Shown piece after piece: positions 1-47,800 of a stretch of DNA of 64,000 nucleotides. The translations under genes and the position numbers were made by a program. Position 1 is the first letter of the stretch; each line of letters begins with the position of its first letter. The notes beneath the pieces were generated by a model. It saw only the letters and a program-made list of their open reading frames with translations. It made no database searches and was not told the origin of the DNA. The stretch lies in contig BRYA01000355.1 in the NCBI GenBank assembly GCA_030267965.1, positions 1-64,000 of the forward strand, written 5' to 3'. Source of the DNA: Triparma columacea (lineage: Eukaryota; Sar; Bolidophyceae; Parmales; Triparmaceae).

Positions 1-66
1 CCCTAACCCTAACCCTAACCCTAACCCTAACCCTAACCCTAACCCTAACCCTAACCCTAACCCTAA
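1..66. repeat. Telomeric repeat (CCCTAA)n
   Basis: Eleven head-to-tail CCCTAA units start at base 1. On the other strand this is TTAGGG running toward the end, so base 1 is a left chromosome end. TTAGGG telomeres are common in stramenopiles and many other eukaryotes, so the motif alone does not fix the lineage. Confidence 0.97.
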
Positions 67-132
67 CCCCAATCTAGCTCTAACCCTATCTCTAACTCTA
101 ACTCTAACTCTAACTCTAACTCTAACCCTAAA
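67..132. repeat. Degenerate telomere-proximal repeats
   Basis: Telomere-like hexamers continue but are mutated, mostly to CTCTAA and related variants, ending with one more CCCTAA. This is the usual pattern where the telomerase-maintained tract gives way to older variant units. Confidence 0.85.
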
Positions 133-901: not shown

Positions 902-3900
902 TTACTCCCCATCCTCATCTTCCGGCACAACACTGCTTACTTTACCCTTGCCACCTCCCACCCCTATAATATCTCCACCATCAGCGCCTCCAACACTTGC
1001 TCTCCTAATACTTGCTCTCAAAGTACCTGCTAGACCATCCTCAGCTTCAGCATCTACACTTGCTCTCCTCAGGCTTTCTCTCCTTCTAGCATCTCCATCG
1101 GCTGGAATTAAATCGACAGGTACTTTAGCCTTCACCAAATCAGTAAACCACTCTGGTTGCTCCTCTTCCCATTTAGCCCAGTTCAACTTGATCCACTTTT
1201 TAATTTCTCTATCAAATGAGACCCAATGATGTCTGGAGCTACCAAACACTTTTATCTTTGTTGCATCATTTTGTCCTTGAAGAAAATATGCCATAGAATA
1301 TTCCTTCGATTTCTGCATGCTCCAGAACGTGTCCCAGTGCTTCTTCTCTATGTTCAAAAAGAAGACAGCAAAGCATATGGTAGTAATTGGTATGAAATAA
1401 TTCACAATTGCTGATGCTATATTAATTGCCTTCTTATCAATATAAGGTGAAGCTAAATATATTGCCACTGGCAAGCTTCCCATTGTCAATAGAAGTCCAA
1501 ACAACCAATATACACCCCCAACTTCGTTTGGATGTCTAAATTTGATTATTGAGGTGAAGTCTACAATGATCTTTATCAGCACTCTGCAAAGAATGCTACT
1601 CACAATTTCTATGTTTCCCCCCAATGGTATCCAGTACCAAAAGTCTCCCCTTAATATTTTAACAAACAAGTAAAGACCAAGGTCAGCTCCAATGTAGAGG
1701 AAGGCCCAATTGCCTCCAATCAACCCAAGAAGGACTATGGTTGCACATCTTATTAGAAGCATCCCTGCTGACAAGAGCAACATAGATACAAACACTACCG
1801 TTCTCTTGCTTGCTTTTGCTGGTATATATCCATAAAAGTCTGGTGCCACTTCTCTCTTAGCAGGGTCTGTGTCCCAGTCATAACTAATTGTTGCTGAGGC
1901 AAAGCCTGTGGTAATTGCTGACACTGCAACTGAAAGCCATGCTGAAGTTCCAACCTTTTTGTCACTGGTTGCTATAGCCATAAGTTGGATGATTACACCA
2001 GGTATGGCCTCAGCAAACATCTCAACACATTTCATGAATGTCATCTCATACATTGGGTCCATTGCAGTCCCCACCTCTTGCTTTGCTCCAGTTGCCACCC
2101 TGTAAGCATCAACTGCAGGCTTGTACCCAAAAAAAATTGGAATCAACTCCTGCAACATCCTTCTCATCCCCAACTTGCTGTTCTGCATCCAAACAAAAAG
2201 CATTTGTATCCCAAATGACACTGCTAAACTTGCCAAAGAAGCCTGAAAGTACCCATACTTCTCATCACTCCAAAACATGTACGTCACATACACATCAGTT
2301 AGCAAATCAGTCATACTAGTGATAGCCCCAACAGTCACTCTTGCCTTCAATCCCCAAGGAACTTTCTCCAACAGCCTGTAGCTAATTGTCTCAAGCATAG
2401 GTCTGAACCATTCATTCTCCTCATCAAGGTCCTGTAGAGCAGGGAAATTCAAAATAAATTCATCCACAGCAGCAATTGGCTGTGTATTAATAGCCAAACT
2501 CCTCGCTAGAGACTCTCCAATCTCCCTTCCTTCCTTCTCTCCCAGCTCTATAGCCTTACCCTCTACCTTCCTAAGCCCAAGCAACTTGTTCTTGACAACA
2601 GCGCCAAGCATTGGTGTGACAAATGCATATTTCTCTGTAGCCTGTCTCAGAACATAGTTTTTCCCAATAAATGACCTGACTGCCTCCTCCTTTGTCATTC
2701 CCTTCTTCCTGAAACTTAATGCAACCAACAGTTGCTCTCCCACTAACTGTCCTATTTGGCTAGGATCTAAACCTGTATATTCTTGTGTAGTATCATTCAC
2801 AGCATGTGAAGCAATCAGTGCGCCTCCGTTGTCCAAGCCAACACTTGCTCTTCTAGTACTTGCTCTATAAGCACCTGCTAGACCACCCTCAGCTTCAGCA
2901 TCAACACTTGCTCTCCTCACACTCTCTCTCCTTCTAGCATCTCCATCTGCTGGAATAAACTCCTCTGGGACACTTGCTTTCATCACATCAGTAAACCACT
3001 CTGGCTGCTCCTCTTCCCATGTAGCCCAGTTTGACTCAACCCATTTCCTTAACTCGCCTTCAATTGAGACCCAATGATGCCTTGAGGTACCAAAGACTTG
3101 AGTCTTCATGTTATCACTTTCCCCTTCGAGGAAATATGCCATTGACATATCCTTAGATCTCTTTGTGCTCCAGAAGGTGTCCCAGTAATTCTTCTCAATG
3201 TTCAAAAAGAAGACAGCAAAGCACAGGGTAGTTATCAGTATAGAATATTTCAAAATAGTCGATGCTACATCAATTGCGTTGTTATCTACATAAGGTGAAG
3301 CTAAATATATTGACACTGGCAAGCTTCCCATTGTCAACATAAGACCAAACAACCAATATGCTCCCCCAACTTCGTTTGGATGTCTAAACTGCACAATTGA
3401 AGTGAAGTCTACAATGATCTTTATAATAACTCTGCTCAAAATACTACTCACTATTTCTGCCTTACCCCCCACTGGTATCCAATACCAGAAGTCTCCTCTC
3501 ATTATCTTAACCAACAAGTACAGACCTAGGTCAGCTCCAATGTAGAGAAAGGCCCAACTACCTCCAATCAACCCAAGAAGGACTATTGTTGTACACCTTA
3601 TAAAAAGCATCCCTGCTGACAAGAGCAACATAGATACAAACACTACCGTTCTCTTGCTTGCTTTTGCAGGTATGTACCCATAGAAGTCTGGTGCATATTC
3701 TCTCTTAGCAGGGTCTGTGTCCCAGTCATAACTAATTGTTGCAGAGGCAAAGCCTGTTGTAATCGCAGACACTGCAACAGAAAGCCATGCTGAAGTTCCT
3801 ACATCTTTGCCGCTGGTTGCTATTGCCATAAGTTGGATAATCACTCCAGGGATTGCCTCAGCAAACATCTCAACACATTTCATGAATGTCATCTCAAACA

Positions 3901-6900
3901 TTGGGTCCAGTGCAGCCCCAACCTCCTGCTTTGCCCCAGTTGCTACCCTATAGGCGTCTACTGCAGGCTTGTACCCAAACAAGATTGGAATCAACTCCCT
4001 TAACACCCTCTTCATCCCCAACTTCTTGTTTTGAAACCAAACAACAAGCATCTGAATGCCAATTGACACTGCCAAACTTGCCAGAGAAGCCTTGAAGTAC
4101 CCATACTTCTTATCTCTCCAAAACTTACGTGTCACATACACATCAGTCAGCAAATCAAGCATGCTTGTGGCAGCACCAACAGTGACCCTTGCCTTTAAGC
4201 CTAAGGTAGACTTCATGAATAGTTTCATAACTATCTCCTCAAGCATGGGCCTTAACCACACTTGTTCATTCATGACCTCCTGCACTTCAGTGAATTGCTG
4301 TGCCCACTCATCTACAGCATGAGCAGCAGACAAAGTAGTCAACATGACTGCTGTCATTGCACTCCCAATCTCCCACCCCCTAGCTTCCTCTTCACTCTTA
4401 TCTTCTCCCTCATTTGTCACTCTCCTTTTAAATTTATTCATAACCACAGCATACAGCATAGTTCTCGTGAAAACATGCTGCTCTGTAATCTCTCTCAGTG
4501 CCCTATTGGCAACAATGAACTCCCTCACGACCTCTACCTTACTGTCCCCTGCAACATTCCTTTTCTTCACTCTCTCCATCAGCTGCTCTCCAAACCTCCT
4601 CCCATCCTGTTCCCCTGCTTCTGTGCTCTTCAGAAGGTTGTCAAAGTAGTAAGCAGCATCAGTTGCTATACCCACGTTCTTAACTACACTCTGTTTGCTA
4701 GCAACCTTTCGTAAACCCTCCTGTCTAGTCATCAGTTCAAGATCTGTCTTCATGTGGCCAGCCTCTGAGAACCTTACAGCAGTGAATTGCCCTTCACTCT
4801 CAACTGTGACTACAAGTGTCTTGTTGTTAACTTTGTGAAGCTTGAGCTTGGAGTCAACTTGATTTTTAAGGTTCCAGAAGAATGCTGCAACTTCCTTATG
4901 GGATGCTCTCACAGTTATTGAAGTCTTTCCCCATCCCATTCCCTTCTCTGCCTTTATCATTGTCGTTCCAAACAACCCACTACTGATCTCTTGAGCTCCT
5001 TGAATCTCTTCAAAATGACTTTCAAGCCCTGGCGCTCCCTTCACTGCAATTTCCTCAAACTTGTTAATAATCTGCTGTCTATTAAAGGCTTCATTCTTTT
5101 TGCTCTGGTCAAATATCTTCCTCAAGTCTGAGACTACTCCGAGAAACCTCGGTGCAATCTTGTTCATGATGGAAGAGTAGAAGACACCACCAAGCTCTAC
5201 CTTTGTTGTAAAAGTCACTGATGTCTGTGGCACACCTCCAATAGTGCCAAGTGGCTCAAACACCCATACTGTGTGTGCCTTCCCTAAAATATGCCCAGAC
5301 TTCACTGGAAAGTCTACCTGAAGTTCTTCTGTGTCTGCAACATCAATAAAAACTTTGCCATCCTGTTGCTTGAACCAGGTAACTTTACTCCTCCCATCAC
5401 GAGGAACAAATCCAGGGATGCCAAGATTCCTCGTTGTTATGTAGTAGAGAGTGTGGGGATTAACATTTACTACCTTCATAGTGGTTATCCCATTCATTTT
5501 GGCTTTCTTCATTTCATCTCTGCTGTTTAGACCGACTATTTCATTTGCCGCACACCTCTCCACACTCGCATCAACCACAGTAGTAGCAACTCCAGTGCAA
5601 AGACTTTCCCCTTCAACATGAACTAGCTTCATCTTGACTCTCTCATCAGGACTCTTCAGATCATCAAAGTTCTCGTCCTTCTTGCACTTCTCATAGAACT
5701 CTTTCCCTTTCCTAATTGCCCCCTTCTCCTCATCTGTATAATCTTGCTGCTCATTTCTCATGATGTTTGCAAGATTCTCTAGCGCAGCCTTATCAATCTC
5801 CTCATCTTGCTTGAAAGCTTCTTGAATCCCGTGTAAGATTTGCAGTTGCTTTGGAATTTTTTTCTCGACAACTTTTAGGGGGATGAAACCGCCAAAATCC
5901 AAGTGCTGTTTGAAATCAAGCTTACATTGCGCTACTTCTCCTTCTTTGCTGATGTTGGTAGCTATAAGCAGTCCTCTGCCTTCTGCTCTGACTACATTTT
6001 TGATTTCTCCACCGTAATCAATCTCATCGTCGCTTGGCCAAGAGCCAACAGAGATACTTTCATTTTTGTTCTTTTTCCACAGATTTCTGAAGACAAATTC
6101 TCTGTTATTGAGCAGCAAAGGAAGTTTCTTGACTGATGCAATCAGCTTCTCGTTTCTCCTTTGCACTCCCTTTCTTACTTCAAGCCGGGCAAGATCGCCA
6201 GCCTGGAAACCAAGAGTATTCCTCTCCCTGCCACAGTACTCAAAGTACCATGCTGCTGCCTCCTCTGCTGTACAGTCTGCATTTCCGTAAGCTCTCCCGA
6301 GTGCAATGCTTCTCTCACCCTTCTTCTGCTGACTGTACTTGATCTCCATCTTCACTCCCTCATAGGGTGACTTCTGAGGCTTCCACCCTCCTTCCTCCCC
6401 ATCAAAGAGTTCACCCAGGTCCTTGAAGACCTTCTCGTGGTCATTCTCCAGCTTGACCCCCTCTCTCATCCTCTCCACCAAGGCACCCCTCACTTCAGCA
6501 TCAACCTCCTTCCCGTTCCTCCTGAACTTCTTCTGCAAGCTGTTGGCCTCTACAAGCTGCTTCTTTGCAAGGTAGTCAATTGCATTGTCCATCAATGTCT
6601 TATGAATGCCACTGAATTTCAGATCAACTGTTTGAATGCGTGTCACTCTGCAGACATTTGGAGCGATCTCATAGAAGAAGTAGGCACCTGTAGTCTCAGC
6701 CAGCTCGAATCCTTCCTTACTAAGGTCCTTGAAGCCTCCTCCTGGGTACTCTGTCAGTGGCACAAAAGCCAAAATGTATGATGACCGGCCATTCTCAAGT
6801 TTGACTTCCTTCCACACAAACCAATTCTCAAATAGTCGATTGGTGGTGGCAGGGACCTTCACGCCGAAATGATAGTGCATGCTTCTAGTTCCCTCAAAAT

Positions 6901-9900
6901 CATTCCTGATAACCCTTCGTAAGTTCCCATTATTTTTCAAGTGCTTCTTAGATCGTGCAAATGTGTCAAGCAGAAATTGCTCTGCCAATACACCCTTTGC
7001 TGACTTGTCCACAGTGACCCCAAAGGCTGCCCAAACTGCGTCTTCCTCTCTCCACAGGAACTTGTCCACTCCCTCCTTCAATGTTCCCTTGACTCTCTTT
7101 CCCTTCTTGTAGAGTTCCTCCTCCAGCCACACAACACTTTCCAGCATCCTGTCCTCTTCCTCAGTAAGAGTTGGCACATTGGGCATGACCTCCTCCACAA
7201 AGTGCATCTTCCTCCGCTCGTCAATGACTGCAGGCTGTCTGAACTTCTTCCTGACCTCCTCCATGATACCCTTTACTGCTGCATACGCAGCCTTGACGTC
7301 TCCCTTCTTGATACTGCCGCTGTTCCAGCCTCCAACCCTAGATCTCGTGGGTCTCGCACTCTTCAAAGTGGGACGCGCACTCTTGAAAGTAGGGCGCGCA
7401 CTCTTTGAGCTTTTGTTTGTGCGAACATCAACTTCTGGTTTCATCTCTGTTATCCTCTCCTCTGCCTTAAGAGTTCCCACCATGGTGACTGCAGTTTGTC
7501 CAAACTCAAAGTCAGTGAAGCTGAGCTCCCCCTCAATGACACCTCGCTTGACAGTCTTGGTATTTTTAAATGCTAGAATCTCAACAAGCTTCGCAGTTGC
7601 CTCATCAGAAAGGTCATCCTCATCAAGGGGTGCCAACTCCATAATGTTCATCGATTTGTCAGGAGATACGACTTTGACGTCGAGGAGAAATTCGACAAAC
7701 TTATTCCCGCTTCTGTAGTGCTGCCAGTAGACGAGTCTGTGAATGGCTCCTTCGTTTTCATCATACTCCTGGAGGGTCTTTCTTCGGAAGTTGCCCTGCT
7801 CACAATCGGTGAGGAGAAAGTCAATGATCTTGTCGCGCTCATCGTGGAAGACACCAGCGAGCTCCATAACCTTCACATCGACGCCGGCAGAGTTGTCTAT
7901 AAGGCCTTCAACGGCTCCGCGGTCATCCAGAAGCTTGACAAGTTTGACTTGCTCAGGGCCAGGAGCTGTGTAATCGATATCAAGTTGTCCTTGCGTAGTG
8001 GAAGAGGCGTGATTGGGGCTAGAGAGGGACTGGGGGGGGTCTTTGTTCCTGACGGTGTTGTCAGGATCTAATGTCATGGACTGAGCGGTAGTGGCGTTGC
8101 TGACAGTCGCAAGGTCGACTGGCGTGCGGCCAGGAGTCGCACACCCGACAGCAGGTGGTATAGCGCTTAAATTGTTCTCGCGGGCTATTCCACCGTTTAA
8201 GGGATCGTCGGAAACTTTGGCGTTGAAATTTTCATGTCCAGGTTGAAGATGAGTATGGCCAGAAATTTCTGGGGGTGGTTTTGGGGGAATTTTTGGTGAA
8301 AAGGGTCAAAAAAAGGCAAAATCTGAAACTCCCTCAGAATGGCTTCTCAGCCCTCCCCTGAACGATCAAAATGCTCTACTCTTCGTCTACATGACTACAC
8401 AAACTCACCTCGTCTAGCATCCTCATGAGAGCTTCTAGAGACTGCGAAGGGGACAATATTGTTGTAAAAGTGAGATAAAAATACAAAGTTTCAATGCGCC
8501 CTCTCGCGAATCTCCCGCTCTCCCCTAGAGTATTAAAGTGTGTTTTTCTTTTCCAGCTCTCAACGCACAACTCACCTTGTCCGGCGTCCTCGTGACCGTT
8601 TTTAGAGTCTGCGGTAATGGCGACTATGGTGTTTGTTAGTCAACATGAAGATATATCAACGCGTGCTCCTCGTTTCTGTGTAGCATATCAAGCGCCCCAC
8701 GTGGTCGCCGGAGACGGAACCCATGCGGTCGCCGCAGAAGCGCCCCATGCGGTCGCCGCAGAAGCGCCCCATGCGGTCGCCGCAGACGGAACCCACGCGG
8801 TTGCCGGAGACGGACCCCATGCGGTTGCCGCAGACCGGCGCCCGCGCGCGTGCGACGCAGCCACCGCCCGTCAAGCTCGACGCCGACGGCCAGGACCTCC
8901 GCGAACGGCTCCACGCGTTCCGCACGCAGGCGGTGGGAAAAAACTACAAAGTTTCAACGCGCCCACCCACGACTCTCCTGCTCTCTCCTAGAGTATTAAA
9001 CTGTATTTTTCTTTTCCGGCGCTCATTGCACAACTCACCTTGTCCAGCGTTCTCGTGACCATTTTCAGAGTCTGCGGTAATGGCGACTATGGTGTTTGTT
9101 ATGTTAGTCAACATGAAGAGATATCAACGCGTGCTCCTCGTTTCTGTGTAGTATATCAAGCGCCCCATGCGGTCGCCGGAGATGGAACCCACGCGGTCGC
9201 CGGAGATGGATCCCATGCGGTCACCGCAGACCGGCGCACGCACGCATGCGCCGAAGCCGCCGCCCGTTGAGCTCGACGCCGAGGGCCAGGCCCTCAGCGA
9301 ATGGCTCCGCGCGTTCCACACGCAGGCGGTGAGAAAAAACTACAAAGTTTCAACGCGCCCTCCCGCGACTCTTCCGCTTTCCCCTAGAATATTAAAATGT
9401 ATTTTTCTTATCCGGCTCTCAACGAACAACTCACCTCGTCCCGCGTCCTCGTGGCGGTTTTCAGAGTCTGCGGTAATGCCGATTATGGCGTTTGTTAGTC
9501 AACATGAAAAGATTTCCACGCGTGTTCCTGTTCCTCGATTCCGTGTAGAATATCAAGGGTCTCTCCCCCTACGACTCCCTGAATCGAACTTACCTCGGTC
9601 TTGTCCAGCGTCATTGTGAGAGCTTTTAGATTTAGAGACTGCGAAGGGGACACCTTGTTGCAAAAGTAAGAAAAAAATACAAAGTCTCAAAGCGTACTCC
9701 CGCGACTCTCCTGCTCTCGCCTAGAGTATTAATATGTATTTTTTCTTTCGGGCGCTCAATGCACAACTCACCTCGTCCGGCGTCCTCATGACCATTTTCA
9801 GAGTCTGCGGTAATGGCGATTATGGTGTTTGTTGTGTTAGTCAACATGAAGAGATTTCAACGCGTGCTCCTCGTTTCTGTGTAGCATATCAATCGCCCCG

Positions 9901-11671
9901 CGCGGTCGCCGGAGACAGAACCCATGCGGTCGCCGCAGAAGTGCCCCATGCGGTCGCCGTAGAAGCGCCCCATGCGGTCGCCACAGACAGAACCCACGCA
10001 GTCGCCGGAGACGGATCCCATGCGGTCGCCGCGGTTGCCGCCCGTCAAGCTCGACGCCGAGGGCCAGGCCCTCAGCGAACGGCTCCACGTGTTCCGCACG
10101 CAGGCAGTGAGAAAAAATACAAGGGTCTCCCCCCCTGCGACTCCCTGAATCGAACTTACCTCGGTCTTGTCCAGCGTCCTCATGAGAGCTTTTAGATTTA
10201 GAGACTGCGAAGGGGACAACACAACACATTGCAAAAGTGAGCAAAAATTACAAAGTTTCAACGCGCCCTCCCCCACGACTCTCCCGCTCTCCCCTAGGTA
10301 TTAAATTGTCCTTTCTGTCTTCCGGCTCTTAACGCACAACTCACCTCGTCCGGCGTCTTCAAGATCATTTTCAGAGTCTGCGGTAATGGCGATTATGGCG
10401 TTTGTTATGTTAGTCAACATGAAGAGATTTCAACGCGTGCTCCTCGTTTCTGTGTAGCATATCAAGCGCCCCACGCGGTCGCCGGAGACGGAACCCATGC
10501 GGTCGCCGCAGACGGAACCCATGTGGTCGCCGCAGACGGAACCCATGCGGTCGCCGCAGACGGAACCCATGCGGTCGCCAGAGACGGATCCCGTGCGGTT
10601 GCCGCAGCACGTTCCGCACACAGGCGGTGAGAAAAATACAAAGTTTCAACGCATCCTCCCGCGACTCTCCTGCTCTCCCCTAGAGTATTAAATTGTCCTT
10701 TCTCTCTTCCGGCTCTCAACGCACAACTCACCTCGTCCGGCGTCCTCATGACCATTTTCAGAGTCTGCGGTAATGGCGATTATGGCGTTTGTTATGTTAG
10801 TCAACATGAAGAGATTTCAACGCGTGCTCCTCGTTTCTGTGTAGCATATCAAGCGCCCCACGCGGTCGCCGGAGACGGAACCCATGCGGTCGCCGCAGAA
10901 GTGCCCCATGCGGTCGCCAGTATAAGCGCCCCATGCGGTCGCCGTAGATGGAACCCACGCAGTTGCCGGAGACGGATCCCATGGTGTCGCCGCAGACCGG
11001 CGCACGGGCGCATGCGCCTCGGCCGCCGCTCGTCGAGCTCGACGCCGAGGGCCAGGCCCTCCACGAACGGCTCCGCGCGTTCCGCACGCAGGCGGTGAGA
11101 GAAAACTACAAGGGTCTCCCCCCATACGACTCCCTGAATCGAGCTTACCTCTGTCTCGTCCAGCGTCCTCATGAGAGCTTTTAGATTTAGACACTGTGAA
11201 GGGGACAACACAACACATTGCAAAAGTGAGCAAAAAATACAAAGCTTCAACGCGTCCTCCTTCGACTCTCCCGCTCTCTCCTAGAGTATCAAATTGTCCT
11301 TTCTCTCTTCAGGCTCTCAACGCACAACTCACCTCGTCCGGCGTCCTCAAGACCATTTTCAGAGTCTGCGGTAATAGCGATTTTGGCGTTGTTAGTCAAA
11401 ATGAAAAGATTTCCACGCGTGTTCCTACATATCGTCCTCGATTCCCTATAGCACATCAATGGACTCCAACTCAACAACCCCCTGACACGAACTCACCTCG
11501 TTCCGCGTCCCCATGAGGTCTTTCAATTGACGAAGACGGAGTAACTTGCCTCTCATGGCCTAGATCAGGTACTGAATGGCAGTTATCGGGCATCGGGGAG
11601 TCAACTTGAAGTGTATGAGTCTCCTCCACACGCTCTTCTCTCCCTCCTCGGGAATCATTTTCCGTGTCCAT
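902..11671 (-). CDS. Giant START-like / XK-like membrane protein with an N-terminal mini-exon repeat array (13 exons)
   Basis: My model has exon 1 at 11671-11497, eleven mini-exons (11365-11333, 11193-11149, 10764-10732, 10377-10345, 10204-10160, 9804-9772, 9638-9594, 9467-9435, 9071-9039, 8608-8576, 8441-8409) and a final exon 8268-902. All internal junctions are phase 1 and the total is 7,941 nt (2,646 aa). Residues 1-58 are hydrophilic. The mini-exons encode 11- or 15-residue repeats such as DSENGHEDAGR and VSKSKSSHEDAGQDR. Residues from about 310 to 1380 look like several START-like lipid-binding folds, judged by pattern only. Two copies of a multi-pass membrane module follow (about 1544-1894 and 2171-2511) with an RVTVGA-TSM-DLLTDVYVT entry and an E-AIPGVIIQL motif reminiscent of XK-related scramblase-like proteins. 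Each copy ends in a soluble RRRES-RRASVDAEAE tail. A lipid-handling role at a membrane is inference. The coding region is well supported, the family name less so. Confidence 0.72.
1000..4330 (-). repeat. Internal duplication of the membrane module (about 1.86-kb period)
   Basis: DNA around 1000-2390 closely matches DNA around 2860-4220, including long identical stretches in the membrane-spanning part and the Ser/Arg-rich tail. The soluble segments between them (about 2430-2760 and 4240-4560) are still alignable in protein (for example AVDEW versus AVDEF) but much more diverged. This is a tandem intragenic duplication with uneven divergence. Confidence 0.8.
8409..11365 (-). repeat. Array of 11 symmetric phase-1 mini-exons (8 x 33 nt, 3 x 45 nt)
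   Basis: Each unit has CGCAG or CACAG acceptor, a 33- or 45-nt exon, then GTGAGT or GTAAGT. D-type exons begin AC-TCT and encode DS(E/K)N-(H/L)E(D/N)AG(R/Q). V-type exons begin TC-TCT or TG-TCT and encode VSKSKSSHEDAG-DR; the most 3' V-type exon is a 33-nt form, VSRSSHEDARR. The end of exon 1 (RPHGDAER) matches the same consensus, so the array probably grew from that exon boundary. D- and V-type exons each keep their own upstream acceptor sequence, so the duplicated unit included intron sequence. Confidence 0.8.
8609..11148. repeat. Intronic 24-bp minisatellite cassettes (five introns)
   Basis: Introns 8609-9038, 9072-9434, 9805-10159, 10378-10731 and 10765-11148 are 350-430 nt, against 126-140 nt for their neighbours. 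The extra sequence holds tandem 24-bp units rich in CGGTCGCCG (about 8690-8850, 9155-9235, 9893-10035, 10466-10610 and 10853-11005), usually with a flanking GC-rich block. On the + strand the unit reads as an octapeptide such as MRSPQTEP. On the minus strand it is also open, as RRPHGFRL-type repeats. All five long introns precede D-type exons. Confidence 0.8.
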
Positions 11672-12563
11672 GTGCAGTTAGCACGCTCAACTCTCGTGCG
11701 GGGGATTTAGAATCTGTGGGGGCATGCGAACGTTTGGTGAGAGTGAGAATACTGCCGGTCTCGTCCCATGTTTGAGAGAGATGTTACCCTCGATCACTCA
11801 AGCCGGCATTTAGGCCCCTTCTGAGAATCCAACACACCCACACAACAGGATCGCTGCCTCTCTCCCTGTCTCTCAGGGTCTTTTCTGTTGATTTACGACT
11901 CCTCCGCCACCGGGTGCCTATATTCTTCTGATGGTCCTCCCCTCCAGCTTACCTGCCCAGACCTCGTCTTGTAGCCCCACTCCTTCAAGAGTCTTGAAAA
12001 AAACAGCTCTTGCGATGTTGATGTGTATTTCACTTTGGCCGATGTACGACACAATGTGAGCGCTCTCTCTCTCGAATCTACAATTGTTTGCGCTTCTTAG
12101 GCACAATCCCTCGATAGTTGTCTGTATGGCTACAGTTAATTAGGGATCTAACACACTTCCGACTTATACTGGTTTTTCCATCTCATTTTCCCCCCGGACT
12201 GGCTGTCTGTTTTTTCCTGACTAAAGGGTTATGAGGGCACGTATAACATAAAAATACCTGCGGTAGGAGTGGTTTTAATATGAAATAGATTGGACGCTTT
12301 AATTTTACGTATCCCTTTTAAGTTTGTCATACTGATCACTCGCCAAGCCCCAAAAAAATAAAGAAAATGACGACGCGTAAAGTTTTCAATACGTTTTCTT
12401 CGGATTCTTGGGGGAACTTAAGCGCATAGTGGATAATATTTAGGTTTCTTATGCCATATTATCCTAAAACCAAGCACTAAAAAAGCTGAGGTGTTCTTAG
12501 GGGACCAGGGGAGAAGGGTAACAATTTCTCAGAAATAGTCCCCTAGCCGCTCCAGCTCCCGTC
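11672..12563. other. Divergent intergenic region
   Basis: This lies between the ATG of the giant minus-strand gene (11671) and the ATG of the plus-strand gene at 12564, so it should hold both promoters. The part from about 12130 onward is AT-rich. I see no tRNA, no conserved motif I can name, and only short unsupported ORFs. Confidence 0.5.
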
Positions 12564-25711: not shown

Positions 25712-28700
25712 ATGTCTGACGATGCTAGCTTAGTTTCAACAACAAGCTCTAAGCGTGACCCACTAGGTGAATTGAGATCAAGACTAGGATCAGTCTCAAA
25801 ATCTACCCACACTCCAGATAGTCTCCCCTCGCTGCCATCTCTTGGATTGCTTAATAAATACAAGTTGGACTCACCTTCATCTAACAATGACGAAAACTCG
25901 GCCATACCACTCAATATTACCACCACATTGAAAGCTGAAACCGTTGTTAAGCCTCTTGTTAAGCCAGTTGTTAAGCCTGCTGCTGCTGCTGCTGTTTCCA
26001 CTCCACAGATGCCTTTGCAAACCATCAAGGTGAGAGCTTGAAGGAACAACAACAACAACAAAATGACTCACGAAACAACTCACGACTCACTGCATGAGGC
26101 GCCAACAAAATAATAACCCTCCCATTTCTTATTTTCCCTTTTCCCTTTCCCCTCTCACCCCCCCCCCCTTTCTCTCCACCCCTGAAGACTGAGGTCCCCA
26201 CTCCCCCCACTCCGCCCACCCCCCTCTCTCCCGACACTCCTCCTAAAGCTACAATGACGGCACGCGAGAAGGCAAGGATGATCCTTGCGAAGAGGAACAA
26301 GCTGACCGCTCCGTCCACCACCGCCCCCATCACCTCCGCCCCCATTACTGCCGCCCCCTCTGCCACCGCCCCAGCGCCGACCTCCGCCCCCCCCAAGCCC
26401 CCGACCTCTGCTGCCACCCAGCCTCCCTCAGAGGCCGCCCTCGCTGTCAAGGGCATCGCAGCCGCCGTGGCGTCCGCCCCCAAGCCCCAAACCACCCCCG
26501 TAACCAACTACAAGGCCATGGCCTACGAGACCGGGGTCCGCCTCAAGTCCTCCGAGCAGCGCGTCCTCGCCCTGCAGCAGGAGATATCCGACCTCAAAAC
26601 CTTCACTTCAGCTAGCAACGACAACCTCGTGGAGACGACCAAGAAGCTGGAGGAGGCGCTTACGAAGGTAGCGGCCCTATCCTCCGCCCCCCCTTCCCCC
26701 CCCCCCGCCGCCCCAGAGCCCCGCGGGGCAACTGCCCCCTTGGAGGCCGAGCTCACGGAGGCCAAGTCTAAGATTGCCTCCCTCGAGGCCACGGTTGAAA
26801 TGTGCGAGGGCGCAATCGGGGACTACGAGGACACACAGACCAAGCAGAGCGAGGAGATCCTCCTCGCCACCAGCGCCAAGGAGACGGCCCTAAGGAAGCT
26901 GGAGGAGAGCAGGGCTGAGGCTGTCGCGATGGAGGCCAAGATTGCAGAGCTCGACGCTAAGGAGCAGGAGATCATCGGACTGAACGCGCAGCTTGCCTCA
27001 TCCTCGACTTCCAACAACGCCAAGATCGAAGCCCTCCAAAACGCCGTGTCAAACAGGGACGCTGAGATCGAGAAGCTCACCTCTGAAAAGTCACAAGTTA
27101 CCACCGAGGAGGTAGACAGCCTCAAGGCGACCATCTCAGGGAAGGACGCTGAGATCGAGGCCCTCACCGAGAAGGCAAGTACACTCAACTCTAACCTCGC
27201 TTCCAAGGACGCGGAGATCGAGGCTCTTACCGAGAAGGCAACCACACTTAACTCCAACCTCGCTTCCAAGGACGCGGAGATCGAGGCCCTTACCGAGAAG
27301 TCAAATACACTCAACTCCAACCTCGCTTCCAAGGACGCGGAGATCGAGGCACTTACTGAGAAGGCAACTACACTCAACTCCAACCTCGCTTCTAAGGACG
27401 CGGAGATCGAGGCCCTCTCCTCCGAAATCGCCTCCCTAAAATCTCAGGTCTCCTCCTCCTCCAACTCAAACACGGAGGAGATCGAAACACTCAACGCCAC
27501 CATCGCATGCAACTACAACGAGATCGCGACCCTATCCTCCGAGGTGACCGAACTAAAATCCACCATTGCATCCAAGGAAGCCGAGATCGAGTCCCTCTCC
27601 TCCACCTCTTCCGCTACCATCTCTGAGATCACCACCCTCAAATCCACCATTGCGTCCAAGGATGCCGAGATCGAGTCCCTCTCCTCCACCTCTTCCGCTA
27701 CCATTTCTGAGATCACCACACTCAAATCCACCATTGCGTCCAAGGATGCCGAGATCGAGTCCCTCTCCTCCACCTCTTCCGCTACCATTTCTGAGATCAC
27801 CACCCTCAAATCCACCATTGCATTCAAGGATGCCGAGATTGAGGCACTCTCCTCCACCTCTTCCGCTACCATCTCTGAGATCACCACACTCAAATCCACC
27901 ATTGCATTCAAGGATGCCGAGATCGAGTCCCTCTCCTCCACCTCTTCCGCTACCATTTCTGAGATCACCACACTCAAATCCACCATTGCATCCAAGGATG
28001 CCGAGATCGAGGCACTCTCCTCCACCTCTTCCGCTACCATCTCTGAGATCACCACACTCAAATCCACCATTGCATCCAAGGATGCCGAGATCGAGGCACT
28101 CTCCTCCACCTCTTCCGCTACCATCTCTGAGATCAACGCCCTGAACTCAACCATTGCATCCCTGAGTTCTGAGGTCTCCTCCTCCTCCTCCTACGCCTTC
28201 TCCCTCACCTCCCAGCTGTCGGTAGCGCAGAGCTCCATCGAGGCCCTAACCGCAGAGCTGGCCGAAGCACAGGCGAGCATCGAGGCGTCTTCCACGAGCA
28301 ACGGCGAGGAGATGGACAACCTGAGAGCCCAGGTGAAGACTTCCGAAACCAAGGTACAGGACCTCACCCTCGCGTTGGACAAAGTCAAGGAGAAGGTGAG
28401 AAGAAAGGACGACCGTAATAAACCGAAAACCATTCTCAGCGCTAACGCAATACAATTCCAAACACCTCGCTTCGCCCGCCGAACTCAGAACGCCAACCAC
28501 ACCGAGGAGAACGCAAACCTTCAGGAATCTCTCTCTTCCTGTGGCGAGAGGATCGAGGAATTGCAAGCGAACCTTGAGGCCCTCACGAAGGCATCTTCCT
28601 CGTTCGAAGTTGACAAGAAGAACATGCTGACGGCCATCGACAAGCAGGCGTCTCAAATTACCGATCTCAAGGCTACCAACGAGGTAAGAATAGACGAGCC

Positions 28701-29398
28701 CCAACCCCTCCCCCCACAAGACAATTCTAACACACAGCCGCAACCCCCTTCGCGACGCACTTCGTTTGTCGTAGGAGCTTTTAGCTACCCTAGCGTCGCT
28801 CCCGCCTCCCGCCGACCCGAACCTCGAGAGTGATCTGCGCTCTCAAATTGCGTCCCTGGAGGACACCATCGCGGTGGCCTCCGAGACTCTCTCTGACGAG
28901 CGCGAGAACTTTGCGCACGAGATATCAACTCTAAAGCAGCAGCTCGAGCAGGGCTCCTTAGCCCAGCCCGCAGCTCCCGCCCCCCAAGATTCTTCCGAGT
29001 TGGAGGAGCTGCAGATGGAGGTCAAGGAACTCAAGAACACCCTCGCTGCGACAAAGCGCAACATGGAGAACACTTTCGTCATGGTCGGCCGCGCGAACAA
29101 CGAGGCCAAGCAGGCAAAGGCCAGGGTAGAGAAGCTCACAATCCAGCTCGACGAGTCAGCGGCGTCCCTAGAATACGCGATGGAGAATGAGGCCACGCTC
29201 CAGGCTCAAGTGGAAGAGATGCGGGCGCAGCTCGACCAGAGCTCCCCTGAACCTGCCCCTCCCGGGGGCGAAGACAACGCTGAATTGGTAGCAGAGATGC
29301 AGCAGCTGAAGGAACAGCTACACGACAAGGCACTGGAGAACGATGGACTACGTGGATACTTGCTCTCGAGAGTGGACGACGCTTTGAGGGATCGGTAG
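25712..29398 (+). CDS. Long coiled-coil protein with homogenised heptad-type repeats (4 exons)
   Basis: Exons are 25712-26029, 26188-28395, 28489-28683 and 28775-29398, all phase 0, giving 1,114 aa. The ATG sits in a good context (AAAATG). Residues 1-250 are Ser/Pro/Ala-rich and disordered, including VVKPLVKPVVKP. Almost all of the rest is predicted coiled coil rich in Glu, Lys, Ala and Leu. Residues about 422-517 contain four to five copies of a 21-residue unit (core SKDAEIEALTEKATTLNSNL), and about 564-765 contain seven copies of a 28-residue unit (cores SSTSSATISEITTLKSTIAS and KDAEIESL). A structural or tethering protein is likely. I cannot assign it to golgin, myosin-tail or centrosomal families. 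Confidence 0.8.
27125..28165 (+). repeat. 63-bp and 84-bp coding tandem repeats
   Basis: A 63-bp unit (21 aa) is repeated from about 27125 to 27420 and an 84-bp unit (28 aa) from about 27560 to 28165. Copies are nearly identical in DNA, including at silent sites, differing mostly by S/A or S/F substitutions. This implies recent expansion or ongoing homogenisation. Confidence 0.9.
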
Positions 29399-41853: not shown

Positions 41854-44800
41854 ATGATTGCTCCCCTTAACATCCTCATTTTAATCTGTGTTCTGTATCT
41901 GACCCCTTTCGTTTCGTGTCAGGGGTATTCAGTAAACCGCGAGCACACATGGTACCGTCTATCGCTTATTACGGGACCCACAACTGGATGGGAAACGTAT
42001 GTTTATGAAATTGAATGGTGGTCTGCTGATGGTCAAGACGTCTCATCATCTTGCATCCCATCTGCGGGGAACAGCGGGGGCTCTGTTGGAAACGCAATAG
42101 ATGGGAGCGAATCTACAGAGTATCGAAGCAGGAACGGTGATACAGCTAACTTTGATTACATCACGTGTGAATTTGATCAACCACTTGAGCTAGGTGAGGC
42201 TTCATTCACATGCCGCTATAAAACCGCGTAGCCCCTACTTTTCTCGTTGCTTTCTACTTANNNTACCCCCCCCCCCCCCCCCCCCCTTCCCCCTCCTCTC
42301 CCCAGTTGCCTTCACTGCCTCCTCAAACAACGGCGGATGGTCAAGCTCTAAGGAAAGGTTCACATTCGATGACAGTAGCGCCAATGTTCTTGACCTCGAT
42401 TCCATAAATTCGATAATTACGTTCGACTTTCGGAATTGCATTTCGAGTAGTAACACTTTTTCCGGGAGGTTGTCGAACATGACATCCGCAGGGACGACTA
42501 CAACTACGAACCTTACTGCGACACTACACGGAGCGACATGCGCCAGTGATCCCGACGACTCAAATAATAAACTTGGCCTCCTCTTCGACGGGGTCAACGA
42601 CTACGTGGAACTGGACAGTTTTGAATTTGGTGGCATTACCACAATTGAAATGTACCTGAAGTTGGACGAGTACAATGGAAACGGCGTGATCCTAGATTTT
42701 GGTAGCAATGGATCCGATTCATTCTCAATCGGCAATCAAGATGAACTCATCGCAATGAAGTACTTTGGCACTGCCTCTACTGCTGCTGCTGCTGCTAACA
42801 TTGAGTACTCTACGAGTCACTTCAGTCAAAAGGCTTGGGACCACTTGGTATTGACAATCGCTGCTGATGGTATTTGGACGCTATATAAAAACGGGAACGA
42901 GGTGGACAGCAGGCAACAGTCTATCCCTAGCCGCACCACCCGCGGTAATCACGGCTTAGGAAATTTGGCCTCGAACCCAACCGACAACTGGTTCCAAGGA
43001 ATCATTGGGTTCTTAAAAATTTATAAGGGGTACAGGTGAGAATGAGCAAGAGAAGGAAAGAGCAGAAGGAAAGAGCACGACCCACCCTGGCGAAGGGGTG
43101 GTAACACACAATATTTCGTTTATGCATCATATTCCTAACGCAACGCTTTCATTCCTCTTTTTCCCTCCGTTCCATTCCATTCCGTTCCTTTCCACTCGGC
43201 TCCTCGCTTCGCTTCGCTTCGCTTCGCTTCGCTTCGCTTGTCTCAGCGTTGACGACACAAATAGCTTGGATGTCCACACAATGTACACAGACAATGGGTT
43301 CCGCCCGGGATGTTTCGAAAGTTGCGACGCTTCTGGAGCCACAGGTATCGGATTAGAAGGTCAGCCGCCAGAACAGCACTTCTGGAATTTCACGGGCTGC
43401 ACAACCGGGACGGCAGTGAACGACGGAAGTGTCGGAGGGATTAGCGTGATACAGGCCATGAACAGTGGCGGTACGTGTGGCGACGAGGGGATGCATCTCG
43501 ATGGCACCAATAGTTTCATAGCCCTTGACTCCTTTATGTGGGGAGGGGAATCTTCCTTGGAAATGTATGTCCAAATTGGTGTGAACAAGCCCAATTCAAT
43601 TGGCTTACTTGACTTTCATGAGGAACCAAGTTCCTCTGCTCCCAGCTCCGCCGGCGCCCCCACCGAAAGGTCCTACCTCGGACTTAATGACAAAGGCAGG
43701 TTGGTGTTTATGGCCACGAGGTGAGAACGGACAATCAAAAAACATTTGTCTTGCGAACGACGCGACGCTTCTAACCAAGTATCGAACCCCCACCCCCATT
43801 TTGCGCTTCGCTCACGCAGCGCTACTGGCAGCGAGGTGTCAGTAGAGAGTGACAAGCCTGTGAATACGATGGTCTGGACCCATTTGCTAGTCACCATCGA
43901 CTCGCAGGGGAACGTCAAGCTCTTTGTCGACGGCGTCTTCCAAGGGAGGCACGCCAATGAGATAAGTTTTGTCCCTCGCGTCTACAGACGTGCAAATATG
44001 TACATTGGAAGTTCATCAGTTCCTGGCCACAGCAACTTTAAAGGCGTCATCAAGTATGTGAAAACCTACCCATACGCTCTTACGAAGCCAGAAGCTCAAT
44101 ACGTTTACTACGATTACATGCTTGAACCAGCAATCTCTTTCAACTTTATGGATTTATGCTCAAATGATGTTGGGGCAATGAATCTTGTCGACTCAGCAGC
44201 TAAAATCGAGGCAACTAGAAACGGTGCTAGTTGCACTACGGAGGGGCTTGCGTTTGACGGTTTGGACGATTTTCTTGCTTTGGAAGCATGGCATTGGGGT
44301 GGAAATACAGGGATGACGATTGAAGTCTTGGTTCGTCTGGACGAGAGCAGACCTTTCAACCCTATCCTCTCGTTCGGGACAAATGAAAGTGACAGCAGCG
44401 CGATCATCAGCAGAGTCGATATTGCGACAAAATTCCTCGAAACCTATGTTGCGATAACAGGAAATTCGACAGGAAACTTGACAACGCTAATGAAAACCAA
44501 CCACCAATTTGCTTCCGAAGGGAAATGGTCGCGAATACTTTGGAGAACTATGTCGCATACCAGTGACGGTAGCAAACAAATCAATTGGCAAGTACTTTCA
44601 GGCACTGGGCCGGTAGATGTGGCCAGTGGAAACGTGTTAGAAAACCCTAAGTTTGCTCTACACACTCAAAACTTCCTCGGTAAATCCAACGACGGCTCCA
44701 CTTATTTCAAAGGAACCATCGGCTCGTTGAGGATGTGGACTCACGGGGTAGGATATAAACAGGACCGGAATGCGTGGCCTACCGCGATTCTCACTGATAT

Positions 44801-47800
44801 GATGGAGGACACGGGCAATTCGCTGTCGCTCCCTTGCGTGGCAGGAACTTACGGAACGACCTACCCAGATTGCGTGGTCTGCGATGTTGGTAAGATTTCA
44901 TCCACTGCTAGTGCTGCAGCTTGCACGGAATGCCCAATTGGCAAGTACAACGACGGAACGGCAGTGAGTGCCTCTAGCCACACATCTTGCACGAATTGTG
45001 AGAGCGGGAAGTTTATAGACACCCCTGGATCCGCAAGCTGCCTCGATTGTCAAGCCGGAAGTCATAGTCCAACGGCTGGCAGCACGTTTTGCACGAATTG
45101 TGAGGCTGGAAAATTTGGAAACAGCACCGGGTCCCCAAGCTGCGAAGATTGTCCAGCAGGAAATTATAGTCCAACGGCTGGCAGTACATCATGCACGAGG
45201 TGCGGGGCTGGAAAATTTGGAGACGGCATCGGGTCCCCAAGCTGCCTCGATTGTCTAGCCGGAAATTATAGTCCAATGGCTGGCAGTACATCATGCACGA
45301 AGTGCGAGGCTGGGAAGCACAGCTCGACACCTGGATCACTAAATTGCACCGTTTGTGGAGAGGGCAAGTACAATCCTAACGAAGGTGCAATCAATTGCAC
45401 TACCTGCCCAGCACGTACTTGGATCGTTGACAACGGGAGAAACGTCAGTCATCATCTTGACAACAGCAATTGTGTTGACATGTGCTCGTCGAATCTTCCT
45501 GTTATCACATTTTCATCGCATGTATCATCAATCCTTCCCTACGAGGCGTTCACAATTTCTGCAAGCGCGGCAACGTCCCCTTGTTCGTACTACGAATATT
45601 TGCCAACCCCCCTCGTGTCGGCGAATAAGTTCCAATACTTAGTCTTCGTCGCTGATCAGGTTGTTTCCTTCACATCTTCCTCGTCAGACAAGAGAAAGAT
45701 TACCATCCCCCCATTTTCTTTTGAGCCAGCGAGTGAGGTGATTGTCTCTCTGAAGGTAACGAATCAGCTTGGTATGAACGAGACGAAGACGACCAACTTC
45801 ACTGTTGGCAGAGCGAATTTGATTGCTAAGATAGAGGGGGGTGACGAGCTGACTTTACCATATCAAGGAAATTTGATGCTCGATGGTTCGACGAGCAGAG
45901 ACCCCAACAAAGAAGACGGTGGTACAAATTTGTTGGCGTACTCCTGGTCTTGTTTAGATGTCACAAGAAGTGAGAATGGATCAGCGTGTTCCCTGCAGTT
46001 TGAGGACCCCGATTCGCCCTCCATCACAATCTCGGACATCCCCGTTCTGTCGACCTACAAGTACACGCTAACAGTTAGTAGTAAAGATGATTACACACTG
46101 AGCCCTGCATCAGCGTCGGTCACCGTGTTTTCTCAGGCAGTTCTGACTCCAATAGTAACAATCGACTCAAGCTCACTGCCCGTCAAAGTGAACCCAATGG
46201 CGAAGCTCACAATTCCGGGAACTATCTCTCTCCCGCCAGACACAGTGGCGGCCTCAGTTTCCATGGCCTGGTCCGTGTTTGACGAGACAAACTCGGCTGC
46301 AGTGGAGCTACCAGCCGCATCATATTCATCTGCATCTGCGGCAACAAATAAAGTTTCAGCACAGACCGACTTCCCTTTCCCGTTGGTTCTCAAAGCTTTC
46401 TCGTTGACTCCTGGGAAAAGGTACAGATTTCAAATTTCTAGCATGTTCGAGGGAGGCCAAAGCGGTGACAGCGCACTATCCTCCGTGAGCGTTGTCGTTA
46501 ACACGGCGCCATTGGGAGGAAACCTTACAATTTTTGACGGAAATGACAGTAACAATGGGAACAGCGGAACTGCTCTCATAACGCCTTTCACATTTTCTGC
46601 GAGTTCCTGGGCCGACGACGACCTCCCCTTAACTTACAGCTTCTCGTGGCAGGTGCAAGGCACTTCCGAAAAGACAAGTGCTGGACAGAGAGGGATGTCA
46701 GATTTTATAGACAAGGTTTTTTTACCAACAGGGCAAGTTGTGTGCACCGTACGAGTTTTTGACAGCTACAACAGCTATTCCGATGGAGATGGACTTGCGA
46801 TCGTTCACCCACCTGCCTCTATTGATGCAGCCATGGAAAGCTCATCTGCGCTTGTCGAGGAGGCGATGCTTACGGGCGACAACTCTGGAGCGCTGGCTGT
46901 CATCACCTCGACAGCACAGGTTCTGAAGACCACTGATTGTACATCAGCCCCTAGCTGCGCAACTTTGAACAGGGAGGATTGCGGCTACTACAGGACAGCT
47001 GAGGGAGGAAATAACATGTGTGGGGATTGCTTACCTGGCTATTTTGGGCCATCCGGGCCTGAAGAGACTTTGATCTGCGAGGATGTGCTTGCTCAATGCG
47101 AAAATGATTCATTGGATGACGGCGAAACCGATGTTGATTGCGGTGGTTTATCCTGCCCGAGGTGCGGAGACGGCAAAGCGTGCAAAGTCGCTGAAGATTG
47201 CGACAGCGGCATTTGCGAAGGTGGCTTTTGCAAGTCACCCCAAAAGCCGTGTCCCACCACGACTAAGGGGACGGATTGCAGTGGGAAGGGAGTTTGTAGC
47301 TACGAAAGCTTTGTAACTTACGAGCCAATCGCAGCATGCTCGACTTATGATGCAACATGCAATGCGCTGTGTACTTGTGAGGCTGGATCCTTTGGGAAGG
47401 CCTGCCAGTACACTGAAGCTGAAAGGTTGGAGGCGCAAAAAAATAGGCTCACACTTTTGAACTCAGTCCTTGACGTGCAAGAGTCCGCAGGCACAGACGG
47501 AGGTATTGCTGATGTTCACAAAGCAGCGACTGACCAAGCAATCACGTTGAAGACAATCACTTCAGATCCCGATGAATTGGATTCGACTTCGGTATCTCTT
47601 GCCACGTTTCTGCTCAAGAGTACAGTCCTGTCAGTCAAGACCAGCATCGAAGACAGCGAAGATGAAGGTGGCACTGACGAAGAGGGGGGTTCTCTCTCTT
47701 TGGAGATCACCGAAGTTGTGAGCAGCTTGTTGTCCACCTCTGCTATTAAGGAAAACGCTACAATTAGCCAAGAACTAAACTCAATCATGCAAAGTGTCGC

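Follow-up and report, generated by a model that had tools for sequence, protein, structure and literature searches.

Tandem arrays of symmetric mini-exons in a subtelomeric gene family of Triparma columacea, a probable basis for protein tails of variable length

Near one end of a contig of Triparma columacea lies a predicted gene whose 5′ portion appears to be divided into eleven tandem exons of only 33 or 45 nt, each coding for one short peptide repeat, ahead of a single 7.4-kb exon. Such an arrangement raises the question of whether one gene diversifies its products through variable splicing, as a preliminary description drawn from the sequence alone had proposed, or whether the diversity resides in the DNA of many related genes. 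The window considered here comprises the first 64 kb of contig C340 (BRYA01000355.1) within an assembly of 37.85 Mb and 789 contigs (GCA_030267965.1), and the gene occupies its minus strand. Judged from sequence, it very probably belongs to a subtelomeric multigene family in which mostly constitutively spliced, recombining mini-exon arrays give rise to a tail of variable length.

Joining exon 1, the eleven mini-exons and the 8268–902 exon (Table 1) produces a coding sequence of 7,941 nt (2,646 aa), to which the mini-exons contribute 399 nt. It contains no internal stop, and all internal junctions are in phase 1. Seven of the mini-exons are D units of 33 nt, three are V units of 45 nt and one is a V unit of 33 nt; all eleven display AG at the 5′ side and GTGAG or GTAAG at the 3′ side, lie in phase 1-1 and are a multiple of three in length, such that any subset joins in frame. 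The mini-exons thus lie where the preliminary description had placed them, with the count, sites and phases it gave, and its claims of full symmetry, of one open frame that begins in an ATG exon and runs on to the 7.4-kb exon, and of a subtelomeric position, given the (CCCTAA)n repeat at window positions 1–131, likewise hold.

To locate related loci, the assembly was matched with probes taken from the array, from exon 1, from an intron block and from the start of the big exon, along with the protein which that exon encodes; each search scored part of its candidates, and the resulting counts over contigs are lower bounds. Sixty stretches fetched at probe matches, and hence picked for likeness, form together with the window a set of 61 loci, all placed in gene orientation. 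As no pair among the 61 has more than 600 bp in common at ≥97 % identity, these are treated as distinct loci and not as haplotype copies. A profile search for mini-exon units across this set (score cut 25) gave 314 matches, of which 302, distributed over 60 loci, are clean under a strict rule that demands 33, 39 or 45 nt free of phase-1 stops, flanked by AG ahead and GT[AG]AG behind. Altogether, 152 distinct unit peptides are represented. The 12 non-clean matches were read singly: five resemble the 3′ end of a first exon (L014, L036, L040, L048 and L066), one has a GTAGG donor (L033), and six are D exons that continue without a break into the exon that follows, as a deletion would leave them (L049, L051, L057, L058, L060 and L062). 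The phase-1 frame is uninterrupted in all six fusions, covering 100 aa in L058 and reaching the limit of the fetched sequence in each of the others (370–1,283 aa); some of the fusions look inherited from a common ancestor, and hence do not count as six independent events. Thirty-four loci harbour both exon 1 and the big-exon acceptor, with 2–11 mini-exon matches each (mean 5.7). In 33 of these, every match passes for AG/GT and a multiple of three, and the remaining one (L013) proved on inspection to be an alignment slip, being clean under the strict rule. Genome-wide, the D-exon 34-mer occurs 237 times with up to 3 mismatches, compared with 0 for a reversed control.

The splice signals of these units are similarly regular. 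A GTGAGT donor is found in 191 of 205 D matches, and 159 of 195 D exons are preceded by a branch-like ACTAAC motif, whose A falls 27–34 nt before the exon in 156 of them; V introns carry CTCAC in its place (96 of 109). Because these sites are both strong and uniform, mostly constitutive splicing is the expected mode.

Coding constraint was gauged by the ratio of non-synonymous to synonymous differences (pN/pS). For D units this is 0.29 in the predicted frame (95 % locus bootstrap 0.26–0.34; all pairs, 188 units), whereas the two alternative frames give 1.00 and 1.11; limited to pairs with 1–4 differences, the value in the predicted frame is 0.36. Given this constraint and the 302 clean matches, the mini-exons are real, with the D units under purifying selection as coding sequence across the family. 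As a control, the intron stretch following exon 1 yields 0.66, 0.91 and 0.93 in its three frames; noise of that size is thus to be expected, and the D units alone fall clearly below that level. With regard to indels, BLAST alignments of exon 1 contain none in 46 copies, although in five the alignment ends at nt 167 of 175 because these copies encode one additional residue, in frame, close to the exon's end (GDAAGQ). The 100 nt of intron after exon 1 hold 42 indels in 42 copies, none divisible by three. Within the big exon, 4 indels (2 not multiples of three) occur in the 189 nt before the ATG at 8077, and 10 (6 not divisible by three) in the 300 nt after it, some of which may mark broken copies. 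Array introns span all residue classes modulo three, with 22, 30 and 29 D–D introns for remainders 0, 1 and 2, and a less even 21, 6 and 16 for the short introns from D to the last V.

Both ends of the array are also retained. All 46 copies of exon 1 that were found read open from an ATG to a GT donor; 39 include the MDT... start, and in the other 7 the longest such frame sets out from an internal methionine. At the opposite end, the 8268 acceptor followed by at least 100 open residues, extending past 8077, is present in 47 of the 51 copies found; the remaining four have no acceptor near the expected place. Of 20 contigs scored for the big exon, among them that of the window, 13 carry a single stop-free match of at least 2,240 of its 2,391 residues. 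A gene start at the 8077 ATG with a silent array, the alternative named in the preliminary description, is disfavoured by the 47 copies that keep acceptor and frame, and by the constraint on the D units. As the stretch between 8268 and 8077 is itself weakly constrained (pN/pS 0.71, compared with 0.35 after the 8077 ATG), conservation of the frame carries this argument. Protein relatives of the big exon are from Parmales, 6 of 13 matches being named Triparma columacea (49–71 % identity). In one T. columacea gene model, P0007, a D unit, a short V unit and the big exon are joined, the residues at the final junction differing slightly.

The long introns of the array have features of their own. On the plus strand, antisense open frames of up to 384 aa occur at window positions 8640–11110 and in other loci, where they traverse the GC-rich 24-nt minisatellites of these introns. 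An antisense gene was considered, as the plus-strand PPVELDAEGQALHERLRAFRTQAVRENYKGLPPYDSLNRAYLCLVQ is protein-like and was matched at 150 places (150 scored of 378 candidates). It was rejected: 63 gap-free copies give a pN/pS of 1.14 in that frame and 0.71–1.14 over all six, codon positions are flat, and the flank PPVELDAEGQ... displays no clear coding constraint. On the ratio of 1.14 and the flat codon positions, this block is treated as non-coding intron filler; 77 of its 85 near-full copies are gap-free. An Rfam search of positions 8200–12000 returned one weak match only (17 bits against a cut-off of 37.8, E 0.65).

The protein predicted from the joined frame begins with an acidic, hydrophilic and probably disordered tail of 11- and 15-residue units. 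Further along, structure models point to a START-fold domain with a helix-grip fold at about residues 802–993, counted from the 8077 ATG; these models are poor overall (mean predicted local distance difference test scores of 42.7 and 40.6), and the START region alone was used. Pfam searches with four pieces of this region gave weak unrelated matches only, although distant relatives can be missed in this way, and two sequence searches against solved structures gave nothing useful (8 matches at E 0.035 or worse in one, none in the other). The C-terminal part consists of two XK-related membrane halves that share 76 % identity, with 7 of the 14 hydrophobic segments in each (by hydropathy only). 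PF09815 (XK-related, a scramblase family) scores 27.4 bits for the whole big-exon protein, above the gathering cut-off of 24.8, and 20.5 and 17.0 bits for the halves alone, both under it. The present case differs from XK-related and START proteins in that a single protein combines a START fold with two XK-like halves, preceded by a tail made from mini-exons.

The number and order of mini-exons differ from gene to gene. Clean units number 1 to 11 per locus in 60 loci, and 38 distinct array strings are found among the 61, unclear units included; the copy-number change that the preliminary description expected is thus apparent between copies. Its term 'diversity-generating locus' survives in part: diversity between loci is present in the DNA, and 'diversity-bearing multigene family' describes it better. 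Within arrays, identical pairs of D units occur 16 times versus 2.05 expected (maximum of 10 in 2,000 shuffles), and D units differ on average by 5.18 nt within arrays versus 5.62 between them. In the window, exon plus intron recur with a period of 396 nt; across the loci, a 45-nt V unit lies 129–150 nt after a D unit in 52 cases, and in 45 of the 61 strings the last unit is a short V unit or the 39-nt version of it (v or w). The recurrence of identical units within arrays, together with the range of 1 to 11 per locus, suggests that diversity is written in the genome through unit duplication. In the mechanism we propose, the pre-mRNA would be spliced exon by exon, mostly constitutively, whilst unequal recombination between similar introns would gain or lose whole exon–intron units, each such event being rendered harmless to the frame by phase symmetry. 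The outcome would be a tail whose length varies per gene, serving as a spacer or interaction tail ahead of a START-fold XK-related membrane protein. Exon skipping may add isoforms, yet the data can be explained without it.

Several observations weigh against this interpretation. Over the three frames, pN/pS is 0.54 (predicted), 1.92 and 0.53 for 45-nt V units and 0.48 (predicted), 1.90 and 0.44 for 33-nt V units, and so cannot tell the predicted frame from one alternative. Stops, and not these ratios, pick the frame here, since the alternative phase-2 frame has a stop in 279 matches of length divisible by three, compared with no phase-1 stop in the 307 matches then passing. Exon 1 (0.76) and the big-exon start (0.71) do not fall below the 0.66 reached by an intron frame, and hence show no coding constraint by pN/pS. 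The case rests on the D units together with the splice and frame counts. In addition, the match is broken or interrupted by a stop in 7 of the 20 contigs scored for the big exon, and some members of the family may thus be in decay or wrongly assembled. Searching proteins with the spliced N-terminus (E ≤ 10, 8,000 of the candidates scored) gave 7 matches, none of them a spliced array. Four of these, carrying exon 1 or units, look like unspliced open frames: P0018, P0020 and P0022 read from exon 1 into intron, and P0021 from a V unit into intron; P0016, P0017 and P0019 are without a mini-exon unit. The same protein collection contains an unrelated protein, P0014, which appears spliced relative to the window, and some transcript-like data may therefore be held there. 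Finally, the gene models of T. columacea derive, according to excerpts of PMC10328945, from a pipeline with protein hints only; the same paper mentions RNA-seq data for several strains.

Of the other explanations, a non-adaptive ratchet is a genuine possibility, albeit not one that we favour. Here, a disordered tail would tolerate any length, units would multiply and vanish without benefit by unequal recombination close to telomeres, and phase symmetry would be a mere survivor of selection against frame breaks. The wide range of array lengths, the duplicates within arrays and the weakly constrained exon 1 and big-exon start are all as this predicts; however, the D units are strongly constrained, more tightly than the flanking tail, and the short V unit that so often comes last before the big exon argues that content is not free. 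Somewhat more doubtful is that one gene yields many proteins through variable skipping or inclusion of its symmetric mini-exons, a mode that has been proposed for the micro-exon genes of schistosomes. These exons are short, any subset joins in frame, and their near-duplicate sequences and near-identical sites could permit variable pairing of sites; but that same uniformity leaves no weak-site class, DNA variation between loci already explains the symmetry, and no isoform emerged from the protein search with the spliced N-terminus. It is unlikely that both processes are layered, with many subtelomeric START–XK genes combining recombination-rewritten arrays and exon skipping into a combinatorial variable-protein system.

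We consider it very improbable that the array is a bank of alternative first exons, with each D unit preceded by its own ATG (MLTNITNTIIAITA-D...). Of 195 D exons, 97 do possess an in-frame ATG that reads open into the unit, the kind of start used by models P0007 and P0004, but the other 98 have no open ATG, only 13 of 49 locus-first D matches possess one, the stretch before D units behaves like an intron end with its branch-like motif, and exon 1 keeps its own ATG-open frame throughout; such a cluster was accordingly rejected, as an in-frame start per unit is not conserved. Barely credible, lastly, is a non-coding array, whether decayed subtelomeric repeat or part of a gene on the other strand, with translation from the 8077 ATG: the long antisense frames through the minisatellites lend it some appeal, but it is contradicted by the pN/pS of the antisense block and its flat codon positions, by that of the D units, by the retained 8268 acceptor and open frame upstream of 8077, and by an Rfam result nowhere near the gathering score.

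Table 1. Exons of the predicted mini-exon gene and repeats within the window
Feature	Position	Strand	Details
Exon 1	11497..11671	-	ATG at 11671, 58 codons + 1 nt, donor GTGAGT; 3′ end D-unit-like
Mini-exon 1	11333..11365	-	D type, 33 nt, DSENGLEDAGR
Mini-exon 2	11149..11193	-	V type, 45 nt, VSKSKSSHEDAGRDR
Mini-exon 3	10732..10764	-	D type, 33 nt, DSENGHEDAGR
Mini-exon 4	10345..10377	-	D type, 33 nt, DSENDLEDAGR
Mini-exon 5	10160..10204	-	V type, 45 nt, VSKSKSSHEDAGQDR
Mini-exon 6	9772..9804	-	D type, 33 nt, DSENGHEDAGR
Mini-exon 7	9594..9638	-	V type, 45 nt, VSKSKSSHNDAGQDR
Mini-exon 8	9435..9467	-	D type, 33 nt, DSENRHEDAGR
Mini-exon 9	9039..9071	-	D type, 33 nt, DSENGHENAGQ
Mini-exon 10	8576..8608	-	D type, 33 nt, DSKNGHEDAGQ
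Mini-exon 11	8409..8441	-	Short V type, 33 nt, VSRSSHEDARR
Big last exon	902..8268	-	7,367 nt; 64 residues upstream of 8077 ATG
24-nt minisatellite in long D–D intron	8695..8835		Also 9164–9230, 9902–10032, 10470–10607, 10857–10997
Telomere repeat (CCCTAA)n	1..131		Contig end

Among the papers listed by searches of the literature, none describes these mini-exon arrays. Short symmetric exons that each code for one or a few protein repeats are a feature of collagen and tropoelastin genes; these code for matrix proteins of animals, and do not form a subtelomeric family whose paralogues differ in copy number. Schistosome micro-exon genes, as presented in excerpts of PMC4350168, string together very small symmetric exons whose omission leaves the frame intact, and in this respect resemble the serial phase 1-1 exons of the window. 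In those genes, however, such exons make up most of the coding region, as opposed to 399 of 7,941 nt here, and the present array is algal, precedes a large membrane protein and varies in length over some 60 loci near contig ends. The bicycle genes of aphids, going by excerpts of PMC9168663, similarly form a family with many small internal exons of one common phase. This is almost always phase 2, in contrast to phase 1 at all internal junctions here, where the units are, in addition, near-identical tandem repeats. On the strength of these excerpts, the array partly resembles both systems, but lacks a defining feature of each.

Regarding genomic location, the near edge of every fetched stretch lies at most about 13.3 kb from a contig end. 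Among the telomere matches listed on contigs of the window's assembly (at least 186), at least 10 fetched stretches lie beside a telomere-bearing end: those of C2, C29, C34, C52, C92, C105, C106, C269, C314 and the left end of C327. The family is also present near both ends of contigs C327 and C467. Six loci (L049, L057, L062, L058, L067 and L068) display the same mini-exon front with more divergent downstream exons, some of which begin with a coiled-coil-like stretch; the front may have been exchanged between subfamilies. A second type of first exon, ending in the unit-like ...GPNHTDAGQ, occurs in L066, L014 and L040, and its sequence is similar to that with which family members P0003, P0005 and P0006 begin.

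Elsewhere in the window, a plus-strand open frame of 3,012 aa (43746–52784) has laminin-G-like, REJ and ephrin-receptor-like matches, the last of the GCC2/GCC3 type, and harbours tandem repeats near its 3′ end. A second plus-strand frame (26254–28833) encodes an 859-aa coiled-coil-like protein with tandem repeats of 63 and 84 nt (21 and 28 residues; 4.4 and 7.3 copies). On the minus strand, P0014 is 97 % identical to the 60305–62095 frame and spans a gap at 62254–62379, where a short intron probably lies, and the gene probably starts further upstream. At least three further contigs, C70, C71 and C75 (about 75.5, 84.3 and 67.7 kb), carry at least 60 nt of exact telomere repeat at both ends and hence have the appearance of tiny chromosomes in complete form. 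Neither 'telomer' nor 'chromosome' appears as a word in the main text of PMC10328945, in which scaffold N50 (the scaffold length at or above which half of an assembly lies) is 63–83 kb for five of six Triparma assemblies.

For the biology of this organism, a single genome offers some sixty arrays side by side, together with introns that act as internal controls, as a natural series for asking how tandem mini-exons arise, keep their frame and are spliced. Given that just 1 of the 13 related proteins carries mini-exon units (two of them), automatic gene models may overlook the 5′ portion of a large subtelomeric family in Parmales, a group that is sister to the diatoms. Should isoforms exist, a phytoplankter would possess a combinatorial protein system. 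If recombination and exon skipping did act as two layers, one lipid-handling protein of the surface or endomembranes would carry a large set of tail variants that keeps evolving, and a free-living, photosynthetic protist of the picoplankton would have a combinatorial variable-protein system.

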